Position numbers and translations under genes: made by a program. Under the pieces are notes generated by a model. It was not told where the DNA came from, did not search any database, and worked only from the letters and a program-made list of their open reading frames with translations. Of a stretch of DNA of 44,941 nucleotides, positions 24,051 to 33,343 are shown one piece after another. The stretch is from NCBI GenBank assembly GCA_016200205.1, contig JACQFF010000166.1, positions 1 through 44,941 of the forward strand. The letters run 5' to 3'. Every line of letters begins with the position of its first letter. Positions within the stretch are counted from its first letter, which is position 1. The DNA is from Planctomycetia bacterium. Lineage in GTDB: Bacteria > Planctomycetota > Planctomycetia > Pirellulales > PALSA-1355.

Positions 24051-26324
24051 TCACCGTGAGCCAGTCAGAAAGGAGTCGGGCGGTTCACCGGCAAACAGCG
24101 GGTCGCCGCCGGGATCCATTGAAGCGGTCAGGGCCGCCAGGTCGCCGCGGAGCGTGAGATCAAGCAGATAGGCCAGCCCACAGCCGACCAAACCGATGGC
24201 GCCCAGGATGCCGATCACGGCGCGGTCGAAATTGAGCAGCACCAGCGCCGAGAGGGCAAGAAACGGCACCGCGACCGTTAGGCCCAAGAAGAGGCGACCG
24301 CGACGGGCTAAATCCGCCAGATCGCTCACGTCGCGGGCGTCGGCGGGCCGCGCTTGCAGCAGCCAGGGATAGCCGAATCGCACGGAGAAAAATGTCACGA
24401 CATAATAACTTTGCGTGGCGGCGATCATTCCGCACAACAGGTTCGACACAACAAAATGCCTGAAATGTTCCGGCGATAGCCGGCTCGTCGAACCCGCGCC
24501 GTAGTGAATCCAAGCAGGAATGACAAACCCCGAAACGGTCCACAGCAGGGCCGTGACCATCGCCGTGGCGGCTCCAAAGGTCAGCGCGCGGCGGACGAGG
24601 TCCGTCGAGGGCGGGGGCTCGGTTTTCTGGCCGCGGGCCAGGCGACCCAGCGTCACGAAGAGCCTGCCGCGAGTGTAGAACACGTATCCCAAGCCGAGCG
24701 TGTAAGCAATCGAGTTGATCCCCAGTATCAAATTGAAGAACGCGCGCTCATCGTCGGGACTCCCCAACCGGTCGACAATCTCCTTCCAGTTGTAGGCGAT
24801 GTTCAGCACGCACATCACAATATTCGGCAGCAGCCCAAAAAGCAGCGTCGACGCGACCGGATGGCGCTTCACCACGGAGATCAACGCGTGCCGGCTGTGC
24901 AAGAGCGCCTGCGCGCGAGGCTGAAGGCACAGGTCAAGCTCGCGCGCCAATTCGGCAGCCGATTGATAGCGGCCGCCCGCCTCAGGCTCCAGGCACTTGA
25001 GCAAGACCTCAACCACCGTCGGCGGACAGTCGATCGGCACCAGCGCGTGGGCCTGGGGAGAGACGCCGCCGCGGCGCACATTGGTCATCTTGGCTAACAT
25101 TTGCGTTTGGGTTTGTGGCAGTGCATCCTCGGCGAATGGCCGTCTGGTGGTGAGCAATTCCCATAAAAGCACGCCTAAGGAAAAAATGTCGCTACGGCCG
25201 TCAAGTTCTTCCGGTTTCCGAGCGTGGGCCGGATTGCAGGCCTCGAGTTGTTCCGGTGACATGTACGCCAGGCTGCCGCCGAAATAGGCCGCGGCAGTGG
25301 CGCCGTCAAGCTTGGAAAAGCTGATGTTGAAATCGGCCAGCTTGGGATGTCCGTCGGCGCCCACCAGCACATTGGCCGGCTTGACATCGCGATGAAGCAC
25401 GCCACGCTGGTGGGCATACGCCAGCGCCCCGGCCAGCCGCGCGCCCACCCAACAGACAACTTCCGGCCAGGTCGCCTTTTGCAGCTTGTACCGCGTCATC
25501 GAATCCGCCGGCGGTTGCTGGCCGTGATGCCCAAGCGCAAGATCGATCGCCTCCAGCAGCGTGGCGCCGCTACGCATGGCCGCTGGAACCTGCCGGGTAT
25601 GTTCGACGACGTCGTGCAGCGTGCCGCCGGCCACGTATTGCATGTACAAGAGCCGCAACTTGAGCGCGGGTAGCCGCCGCTGATCGAACACGCGCACGAT
25701 GTGCGGATGATCGAGCTGCGCCAGCGTCTGTGGCTCGAAACCCCGATCGCGCGAAACCTTCAGCGCCACCAGCCGCTGCATCGAACATTGTCGAGCCAGA
25801 AACACGGTAGCAAAAGCACCCTTGCCCAAGGATGCAAGCAGGTCAAAGTCGTCGAGCCGTTGTCCCGGCTCGAAGGGGGGAACGCGGTCGGCATTCACCA
25901 GCGCGGCCGACTGCTCGGGACTTTCGAGTTGCAAGAGTCGCCGCAGCTCGTGTTCATGCGCCGGAAAACGATCGAAGTATTCGCCGATCGACACGTCGTC
26001 GCCCTGCTGGCGGCGAACGTGGTATTCCTCATAAACGATGTCGCAGGGCACGCCGCCGGCGAGCAATTCGGGGAATTCGCGCAGGTAATCTTCCATCGTC
26101 TTCGGCCAGCGCCGCTGTTGCCAGCGATATTCCAGGTCGACTTTGATCGCCTCGATCAGCGTTAAGCGACGCAATGCGCCCGCAGCGTTGGGCAAAAACT
26201 CGGCGAGCACCGGCGGCTCGGCGGCGTCCTGCCAGGCCGCGACAAAAGCATCGAGGTGCTCCAGCAACTGTTGCCAAACCCGCGAAGCGTCGGTTTCCGC
26301 CAGGTTGTCGGCCGCTTGCGACAT
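24051..26324 (-). CDS. Ser/Thr protein kinase with C-terminal membrane domain
   Basis: The 757-residue protein has a 150-residue N-terminal helical region rich in the pattern FPELL and YFDRFPAHE, then a Hanks-type kinase domain (about 158-470). Seen are GKGAFATVFLA (P-loop), K189 in VALKV, H311-R-D-V-K-P-A-N catalytic loop, D331-F-N in the metal-binding loop, and SPE at 356-358. The usual DFG is DFN here. The C-terminal 270 residues hold about six hydrophobic helices (for example VASTLLFGLLPNIVMCVLNI). It phosphorylates unknown substrates at the inner membrane. It lies 117 bases downstream of the ECF sigma gene on the same strand, so the two are probably co-transcribed and may form a signalling pair. 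Confidence 0.9.
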   Translation of the reverse strand: MSQAADNLAETDASRVWQQLLEHLDAFVAAWQDAAEPPVLAEFLPNAAGALRRLTLIEAIKVDLEYRWQQRRWPKTMEDYLREFPELLAGGVPCDIVYEEYHVRRQQGDDVSIGEYFDRFPAHEHELRRLLQLESPEQSAALVNADRVPPFEPGQRLDDFDLLASLGKGAFATVFLARQCSMQRLVALKVSRDRGFEPQTLAQLDHPHIVRVFDQRRLPALKLRLLYMQYVAGGTLHDVVEHTRQVPAAMRSGATLLEAIDLALGHHGQQPPADSMTRYKLQKATWPEVVCWVGARLAGALAYAHQRGVLHRDVKPANVLVGADGHPKLADFNISFSKLDGATAAAYFGGSLAYMSPEQLEACNPAHARKPEELDGRSDIFSLGVLLWELLTTRRPFAEDALPQTQTQMLAKMTNVRRGGVSPQAHALVPIDCPPTVVEVLLKCLEPEAGGRYQSAAELARELDLCLQPRAQALLHSRHALISVVKRHPVASTLLFGLLPNIVMCVLNIAYNWKEIVDRLGSPDDERAFFNLILGINSIAYTLGLGYVFYTRGRLFVTLGRLARGQKTEPPPSTDLVRRALTFGAATAMVTALLWTVSGFVIPAWIHYGAGSTSRLSPEHFRHFVVSNLLCGMIAATQSYYVVTFFSVRFGYPWLLQARPADARDVSDLADLARRGRLFLGLTVAVPFLALSALVLLNFDRAVIGILGAIGLVGCGLAYLLDLTLRGDLAALTASMDPGGDPLFAGEPPDSFLTGSR

Positions 26325-26440
26325 GGAGGTCGCTCCCGCTCTTCATTTCGCCAACTTGCACGATCGTCATTCGCCGCTTCGGTACCGCTGCGACACCGCG
26401 GCCTTTGCCCAGCCGTGTAAGTATACCAGCGCCGGAGCGC

Positions 26441-27052
26441 TCAACGAGGCGCGTCGTCGGGACCGAGGATCTGCTGCAAGCGGGCCAGCGCTCGAGTGAG
26501 CATCACGCGCACCGAGCCATCGGTCTTGCCCAGCCGCTCGGCGATGTCCTTCGATGACAGTCCCTCCACGTAGCGCATCCGCAATGCTTCGCGTTGCTCC
26601 CGCGGCAGCGTCGCCAGGGCCTCCAGCAGGCGCACCTCGCGCTCTTTGCGAGATAGTGCCTGGGTTGCCGTGGTGATCGAGACCACCAGCAAGTCAATGA
26701 GGCCCGCGTGTTGTGAATCGGCGCCCGGGCTGCCGAGCGGAACCTCGCGCCCCGCGTCCCGTTTCTGGGCGCCAAAATAGCGTCGATGGGCGTCGATGAT
26801 CCTCTGCTCGGCGATGTGACAGAGCCACCCAAACGGATCGCGGTGGTCGAAGTTTGCCTGGCTCAGCGAACGAACAGCTTCAACGCTCACTTCTTGGACA
26901 ACGTCGTCAACTTCGATTTTGCGGCGCAAAGCGGCACTCAACTGCCGTTCGATGAACGCTGAGAGCGGTTTGCGGCAAACGACCAGGTACTCGGCCAGCG
27001 CGGCCAAATCGTGCTGCCTGACGCGGCTGATCAGTTTATCGTCGCTTTCCAT
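26441..27052 (-). CDS. ECF RNA polymerase sigma factor
   Basis: The 203-residue protein has sigma region 2 (VDDVVQEVSVEAVRSL and HRDPFGWLCHIAEQRIIDAHR) and sigma region 4 (ALATLPREQREALRMRYVEG, then SKDIAERLGKTDGSVRVMLTR). No region 3 is present, as in ECF sigma factors. No zinc-type anti-sigma gene is adjacent. Instead the next gene on the same strand is a membrane Ser/Thr kinase, an arrangement common in planctomycetes, where phosphorylation is thought to control the sigma factor. ATG at 27052 is chosen over GTG at 27055; GAGG precedes it at a suitable distance. The target promoters cannot be inferred. Confidence 0.92.
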   Translation of the reverse strand: MESDDKLISRVRQHDLAALAEYLVVCRKPLSAFIERQLSAALRRKIEVDDVVQEVSVEAVRSLSQANFDHRDPFGWLCHIAEQRIIDAHRRYFGAQKRDAGREVPLGSPGADSQHAGLIDLLVVSITTATQALSRKEREVRLLEALATLPREQREALRMRYVEGLSSKDIAERLGKTDGSVRVMLTRALARLQQILGPDDAPR

Positions 27053-27230
27053 CACTTTTGCCTCGCGACTGGGCAGTCTGGAGATCGCTTCAGTGTAGCG
27101 GCTTGCGCAAATCGAGAGAACTCACCAGGCTCTGTACCGGCCAAAAAATGCGCCTCGCGTAGCAACCCGGACGATCATGCGCTTCGTAAATAGTACAGGC
27201 GGCCTACGTTCGAGGGTACGGAGACGAGTC

Positions 27231-31387: not shown

Positions 31388-33343
31388 TCAGAACTGATCT
31401 CGTTGCAAGACCTCCACCGTCTCGACGCAGGCCGTGACCGCGTGTTCGGGAGCAATGTTCCGGCGGACAAAGTCGAGGATTTGTTCGGCGATTTCCGGCG
31501 GCACGACGATTTCAATGCGGACTTGGGAGTTGCGAGCTGTTCGGCCTTCAGCCGCGGTTCGCCGGCCAGCACCGTAACACGGGATCGACGTGTAGCCGGA
31601 TGCTCCCAGTGCGATGCAACGGTCGACCAATTGCGATTCCAACTCGCTCTGAGCCACGATCGTCACGCGCCTGAGGCGTACGAAACCGCGTTTGCGCGCC
31701 GCGTGTGGATGGTCGGAGACCTGCCGATGCGACTCCAGGCCAACGATTTCGAGCTGTAATCCGGCCTGTTCGAAGTCCATTTCCATCTCGTGCAACTTTT
31801 CCATCACGCTGTGGTCGACCATCTTCGTGCCGGAAAGATCCAGCACCACGTTGTTCCGCTCAACCAAGCCAAGCTGTTCGATTTGGCGTCTGAAAGGCAG
31901 CCAATTGCTGAAGACCGCGGATTCTCTGGCAAAAATCACAACCGTGTTGTCGCCGCGGGTTTCGACGTCCAGGTAAGGTTTGAACAGCGAGCGAATTGGC
32001 ACGCCATTGAACACGTGAATCATGAACTTGATGCCGATGCCGATCGCGATGCCGACCAGCAGATCCGTCGCCAGCACCGCGATCACCGTCACGACGAAGA
32101 TCACCAACTGCTCGCGGCCGATCTTGTAGACGTTCAAGAATTCCTTGGGGGATCCCAAGCGAAAGCCCGTGTAAACCAGCATCGCCGCCAGCGCCCCGAG
32201 CGGAATGCGGTGAATCAGGAAGGGGATCAGCGACACGAACCCCAGCAGAAACACGCCGTGCCACATGTCCGCAAACCGCGTCCGCGCGCCGTTGTCGATG
32301 TTGGCCTTGCTGCGCACGATTTCGGAAATCATCGGCAGCCCACCCACCGATGCCGCGACCGTGTTGGCGATTCCGACGGCGATCAGGTCGCGGTTCAGGT
32401 CCGTCTTGCGCTTCCAGGGATCGAGCATGTCGATGGCCTTGGCGCTAAGCAACGACTCGAGCGACCCGATCAGCGAGAACATGATGACCCATTTCCATGC
32501 GGCCACGGTCTTCAACGCCGAAAAGTCCGGCGACGTTATCGCCTGGAACATATTGTTGGGCACGTTGACCAGGAATGTCTCGCCCAGTTCGTACTGGTGC
32601 CCAAACATCGTATACGTGTGCTCGTGCGACAGGTCCAAATATATACCCATAGGTACGGCTACGAGCAGCACAATAAGTGGCGCGGGAACCATCTTGACCC
32701 ACTGGTGTTTGATCAGCGGCAGCCCGAACAAGATCAACAAGCTGATCCCGCCGATGATGGCAACTTCCGGATTGGCGTGGGCAAACTTCTCCGGTAGTTC
32801 GCGGATGATCTCAAACGGTTCGCCCTTGGCAGTCTCACCGAATGTGACCGGCAACTGTTTGAGTACGATGATGATGCCGATTGCGGCCAACATGCCGTGC
32901 ACGGCGGCCGTCGGGAAGAAATCGCCCAACGCCCCGGCGCGCACCAGCCCGAACGCAATTTGAATCACTCCGGCCGCGACACCCACGGCCAAGGCCATCC
33001 GATAGGCCTGCATGTCCGCCGCCGGATCCTGGCCGCCGGTGAAGCCGAATTCGGTGACCGCGCCGATCGCGATCACGATCAGACCGGCTGCCGGCCCTTT
33101 GATCGTCAACTCGGCATTGCTCATGAAGCTCGTCAAGATAGCGCCGATGATCGCCGTGAACACGCCGGCAATCGCCGGGTAGCCACACGCCAACGAAATG
33201 CCCAGGCAAAGCGGCAGCGCGACCAGGAACACCAGAAAACCAGAAATGATGTCGTGCTGAAGATACTTGAAGAACCCCGCCATGTTGCCACGCGGCGTTC
33301 CATTTGTTGCAGTGGTAGTTTCATGGTCCTTGTGCGAAGACAT
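31388..33343 (-). CDS. SulP-family anion transporter with STAS and C-terminal PII/SbtB-like domain
   Basis: The 651-residue protein starts with a cytosolic tail, then the SulP transmembrane core (about residues 20-430: [20 protein letters not shown] and [20 protein letters not shown]). A STAS domain follows (about 470-545: [20 protein letters not shown]). Residues 557-651 form a ferredoxin-like domain that matches PII-like SbtB proteins: [49 protein letters not shown] and CVETVEVL. SulP proteins move bicarbonate, sulfate or other anions. SbtB regulates the bicarbonate transporter SbtA in response to adenylates, so bicarbonate transport with nucleotide sensing is a plausible inference. GGAG lies seven bases before ATG at 33343. 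Confidence 0.88.

Follow-up and report, generated by a model that had tools for sequence, protein, structure and literature searches.

A SulP-family transporter with a C-terminal SbtB-type PII domain in Planctomycetota

We found that a planctomycete contig of 44,941 nucleotides, analysed over its whole length (the window), encodes a SulP/SLC26 transporter joined at its C-terminus to a PII domain of the SbtB type. The same fusion recurs in the phylum, and in most relatives the gene lies next to a DAB (DabA-DabB) operon. On balance we favour the view that the protein is a bicarbonate transporter carrying its own nucleotide-responsive, SbtB-type PII domain.

Architecture and distribution of the fusion

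The open reading frame lies exactly where the first-pass annotation had put it, and both strings quoted there, one of 28 residues and the other CVETVEVL, are present in it (Table 1). Its N-terminal part has the composition of a SulP/SLC26 family member, Sulfate_transp followed by STAS, with the STAS match falling below the curated Pfam cut-off (E 1.3e-3, 18.9 bits). The annotation had also claimed a complete ferredoxin-like domain after STAS; this held, with a Pfam P-II match at residues 558-648 (E 1.7e-11, 44.8 bits against a cut-off of 25) and a confidently predicted PII fold. GASGYT and GAGRR form a conserved signature common to the fused PII domain and SbtB.

Table 1. Coordinates of the fusion gene and its domains in the window
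Feature	Position	Strand	Details
Whole SulP-STAS-PII fusion ORF	31388..33343	-	651 aa, intact; full length kept in relatives
SulP/SLC26 transmembrane domain	32087..33262	-	residues 28-419; Pfam Sulfate_transp (PF00916) E 3e-59
STAS-like domain	31733..31966	-	residues about 460-537; Pfam STAS weak; strand-helix pattern in model
PII-like domain, SbtB/TTHA0516 type	31391..31696	-	residues 550-651; Pfam, phmmer, predicted structure
GASGYT ... GAGRR, glycine motif and T-loop base	31559..31606	-	residues 580-595; alignment with 2cz4 and SbtB

SulP-PII fusions were found at about 30 independent Planctomycetota loci belonging to many genera, which rules out a chance join, a mis-assembly or a frame artefact. 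When genomes of bacteria and archaea were scanned, 21 loci came up, all of them in Planctomycetota or in bacteria of no stated phylum; most were full-length fusions, including those of Thalassoglobus neptunius KOR42 (L020) and of a strain given as Rhodopirellula baltica. Among 294 Planctomycetota genomes, 14 matches (window included) extended into the PII domain as far as protein residue 645 or beyond, while other close SulPs, forming a second group, stopped at about residue 552. A PII model, backed by direct reading of the frames, matched the full-length copies but picked up no such domain next to the short ones. No separate PII gene was seen directly downstream of the PII-less relatives in L012, L017, L019, L022 or L032, and some genomes with such a relative have an SbtA-SbtB pair elsewhere (e.g. 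G283). In a plasmid search beyond Planctomycetota no fusion was found: the annotated gene of a Methylomagnum SulP homologue stops short of the PII domain and a Persicobacter match ends at residue 551. PII matches in long frames of two genomes (G240, 976 aa; G200, 421 aa) were apparently PII genes read through GC-rich open frames.

Identity of the fused PII domain

The closest solved relative of the fused domain, in both sequence and fold, was the free-standing protein TTHA0516 (2cz4). Phmmer against solved structures gave E 2.8e-11 for this protein and E 1e-3 for Cyanobium SbtB. Modelled alone (pLDDT 87.8), the domain showed the elements E-H-E-(H)-E-H-E of a ferredoxin-like PII fold, the complete beta-alpha-beta-beta-alpha-beta unit of the PII superfamily. 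The model matched TTHA0516 with Z 15.3 (1.8 A over 87 residues), and the comparison with SbtB that the first-pass annotation had proposed returned a PII fold with a T-loop, at Z about 13-14 for SbtB entries and about 10.5 for canonical PII. The Thiomonas protein CPII, also free-standing, has a similar fold (Z 13.3); judging by the titles of its PDB entries, its structures contain ADP/AMP and bicarbonate.

The PII tree divided in two with 100/100 support. One side held the fused domains together with TTHA0516, cyanobacterial SbtB and four planctomycete proteins that are free-standing; the other held the five other PII proteins of the host genome, all GlnB-type. The tree resolves this split rather than the branching order inside the SbtB-type group. 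The B-loop GDGKI and C-loop RTGE hallmarks are present in the host's own GlnB types and absent from the fused domain, which does not have the canonical GlnB/GlnK set of these two motifs and a T-loop with a uridylylation tyrosine. Tree and motifs together rule out a canonical nitrogen-type PII. Instead, the domain has the GxxGYT motif and GxG T-loop base of the SbtB group, and the four free-standing proteins, its nearest planctomycete relatives of that kind, each adjoin an SbtA-type gene (PF05982). Sequence, predicted fold, tree and these SbtA-adjacent relatives all agree with the earlier 'SbtB-like' label, and we regard the SbtB-type assignment as well supported on sequence and modelling grounds. 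The claim of an SbtB pattern stood in part: the glycine motif and T-loop base are kept, while the C-terminal CGPxGC redox R-loop is absent from the ORF and, among solved structures, TTHA0516 comes nearer than cyanobacterial SbtB. Cyanobium SbtB naturally has no CGPxGC R-loop either (PMC10991534), so this element is inessential to the family. Since the domain is fused to SulP rather than acting as a free-standing protein on SbtA, and SbtA was not found in the host, we class it as a fused SbtB-type domain and not as an SbtB protein. It probably binds adenyl nucleotides (AMP, ADP, ATP or cAMP).

We also considered whether an otherwise ordinary SulP carries a PII domain that has ceased to sense nucleotides and persists as an appendage for structure or oligomerisation, or as a vanishing relic. 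SulP-PII proteins were 55-71% identical to the window protein over the whole alignment and 25-56% in the PII part alone. Among closer relatives dN/dS was about 0.02-0.10 for SulP plus STAS and about 0.10-0.23 for PII (the L007/L008 pair was too similar to inform and some pairs were near saturation), so the fused domain is under constraint yet evolves faster than the transporter. Of 27 fused copies, 16 keep both glycine motifs, that of the window among them, and the other 11 have lost at least one; these 11 include a whole lineage (f45: L023, L028, L031, L034) in which the T-loop is shortened and the T-loop base and glycine motif are gone. Several close SulP relatives lack the PII domain altogether; with the 11 copies short of glycine motifs, this shows the sensor to be dispensable. 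SLC26 transporters are dimers whereas PII proteins form trimers, and this symmetry mismatch speaks for an appendage and weighs against the reading we favour, in which nucleotide sites would have to form between subunits. These losses and the weaker constraint agree with an appendage; a PII dN/dS still at about 0.1-0.23, GASGYT and GxGR kept in the window copy and in most DAB-linked copies, and a T-loop as long as in the stand-alone proteins beside SbtA argue against it, and we consider it somewhat unlikely.

Transporter, substrate and genomic setting

The full-length model (pLDDT 73, moderate confidence) aligned with SLC26 structures and with BicA (6ki1). The window SulP is not a BicA orthologue: it scored 118 bits against the cut-off of 880 for the NCBIfam BicA equivalog, and in the SulP tree BicA fell in a separate clade, lying, like SLC26Dg and prestin, far from its family on a long branch. 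The sister of the window family was a clade that includes SulP-beta-carbonic anhydrase (CA) fusions. In a 16-sequence alignment (A1) E296 and R344 of the SulP domain were invariant, and the former falls at the position of the TM8 acid in SLC26Dg and BicA, which by family analogy suggests cation coupling. Fusions of SulP to beta-CA, of about 750-830 aa, were seen in Planctomycetota (L042, L043, L044), and some SulP-PII genomes encode another SulP whose long open frame is about as large.

An all-against-all comparison of flanking ORFs revealed a recurrent gene set around the fused loci. Two flanking ORFs were confirmed as DabA (PF10070) with E 2.3e-216 and 1.8e-227. By position in the phylum sample, DabA adjoins the fused gene in 16 of 23 loci with enough flank to be testable, L015 being left out (L003, L005, L006, L011, L013, L016, L018, L020, L021, L024, L026, L027, L029, L030, L033 and L035; divergently in L030 and L035). 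The seven without it are L007, L010, the four f45 loci and the window. The usual order, on one strand, is dabA-NuoL-like-NuoM-like-sulP-PII. Pfam placed a beta-CA downstream in the L005 cluster, and homologous ORFs lie downstream in L006 and L011. Several PII-less close relatives also lie near DabA (G065, G173, G199, G268, L017, L019, L022), so the DAB link is a property of this SulP family and PII is an added layer.

Several features of these regions were recorded separately. With NuoL-like and NuoM-like antiporter-type subunits besides DabA, the planctomycete DAB clusters (L005:1-5980, L020:3-6015 and others) exceed the two-gene DabA-DabB arrangement. A two-component histidine kinase and a probable response regulator adjoin the PII-less SulP at L017:2770-5795, L019:5328-8088 and L022:3513-5664 (the kinase was confirmed by Pfam in L022), and may take the place of the PII sensor at PII-less SulPs near DabA. 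SbtA genes with an adjoining PII-like gene were seen in four Planctomycetota loci (L092, L093, L098, L099), indicating SbtA-SbtB pairs outside cyanobacteria; another SbtA gene is in L094.

The DabA and CA neighbours and the sister clade with SulP-CA fusions point to inorganic carbon rather than sulfate, and on this genomic context, together with the invariant acidic residue E296, the substrate is most likely bicarbonate. Pfam calls the family sulfate permease, and SulP proteins carry sulfate and other anions; the protein could thus take up sulfate or another anion, with PII tuning uptake to energy or nitrogen status. Besides the carbon-linked neighbours and sister clade, the host already has a CysT/CysW-type sulfate permease pair elsewhere in its genome and the fused PII is SbtB-type, not GlnB-type, all of which makes a sulfate transporter very unlikely.

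The host genome (4.96 Mb, 328 contigs) contains one recognised SulP. No DabA and no beta-CA (PF00484) turned up, either around the window copy or in the rest of the genome, and searches of the genome for SbtA (PF05982) and the RuBisCO large chain found neither, absences that are provisional at 95.8% completeness. The protein looks like the host's lone recognised bicarbonate-type transporter. As the window copy is an orphan with none of these four partners found, it is more likely to serve anaplerosis or pH control than to concentrate CO2, and its likeliest use in this host would be to feed bicarbonate to carboxylases or to balance pH. A related proposal is that the protein is mainly a bicarbonate/proton-balance exchanger, serving pH homeostasis or export, with PII reporting energy state, rather than an uptake system. 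It would fit a host in which RuBisCO was not found, and also a PII-less relative (L012) whose downstream ORF, from about 6600, reads by eye like an NhaD-type Na+/H+ antiporter; but the operon with DabA, part of a bicarbonate-accumulating system, points to uptake, and we regard the exchanger as rather improbable. Elsewhere in the window (24051-27055, minus strand) a Ser/Thr protein kinase gene adjoins a gene for an ECF-type sigma factor, as is common in planctomycetes.

Proposed mechanism and relation to known systems

In the bicarbonate transporter that we favour, an adenyl nucleotide (AMP, ADP, ATP or cAMP) would bind in clefts between PII subunits and set the conformation of the short T-loop and of the STAS region, so that the transporter opens or closes. 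A sensor tethered behind STAS would thus gate its own transporter, uniting the roles of SbtA and SbtB in one polypeptide. In most relatives the fusion gene forms part of a DAB-type inorganic-carbon cluster, which would combine vectorial CO2 hydration with bicarbonate import; in the host, where searches found no DAB and no RuBisCO, it would supply bicarbonate for carboxylases or pH control. Besides the symmetry mismatch, further observations weigh against this model: the window copy is not next to DAB and none was found in its genome, its SulP part is not BicA, several close relatives do without the PII domain, and 11 of 27 fused copies lack one or both glycine motifs. One further arrangement, which we think unlikely, is that the fused PII domains of neighbouring transporter dimers form trimers, so that sensing would both gate transport and link two-fold transporters through three-fold sensors into a higher-order membrane assembly, with the DAB pump adjoining in most relatives, in planctomycetes that have no known CO2-concentrating mechanism.

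SbtA-SbtB resembles the fusion in having a PII of the same fold and sequence group and a bicarbonate-type partner, the latter presumed for the fusion. It differs in that SbtB is separate from SbtA whereas the window PII is covalently joined to SulP, in its cyanobacterial setting (the window host is not known as photosynthetic), and in detail: the T-loop of the window PII is four residues shorter than in cyanobacterial SbtB, and its CGPxGC R-loop is missing. In SbtB trimers AMP lies between subunits and the T-loops insert into SbtA (PMC8352866). BicA shares the SulP fold with STAS and, probably, the bicarbonate substrate, but it is distant in the SulP tree and has no PII domain, SbtB acting on it in trans. 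A contact of SbtB with BicA has been reported, though no mechanism for it is known, and whether SbtB controls bicarbonate transporters as a plug against leakage or as an inhibitor is still debated (review PMC13249358). Transport by SbtA and BicA has been assessed in E. coli (PMC4275256).

The SulP-beta-CA fusions, reportedly of the type of Felce and Saier 2004, likewise have a C-terminally fused, bicarbonate-linked domain and occur within the Planctomycetota sister clade; they carry a catalytic CA domain where SulP-PII has a sensory PII-like one. They correspond to clade C of PMC6458275. The DAB pump is a neighbouring operon in most relatives and no part of the fusion protein. Searches of an open-access library, which does not cover many subscription papers, found no described SulP-PII fusion. 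Automatic domain databases probably list the architecture already, and the gene as such is therefore unlikely to be new; what appears to be new is the placing of the fusion with SbtB and DAB.

The fusion ties PII-like sensing to DAB pumps in Planctomycetota, a phylum that, to our knowledge, is not known for CO2-concentrating mechanisms. As one chain with a fixed 1:1 stoichiometry, present in cultured planctomycetes, it would make SbtB control of SulP transporters directly testable, and it may provide a compact module with which to engineer regulated uptake of bicarbonate.
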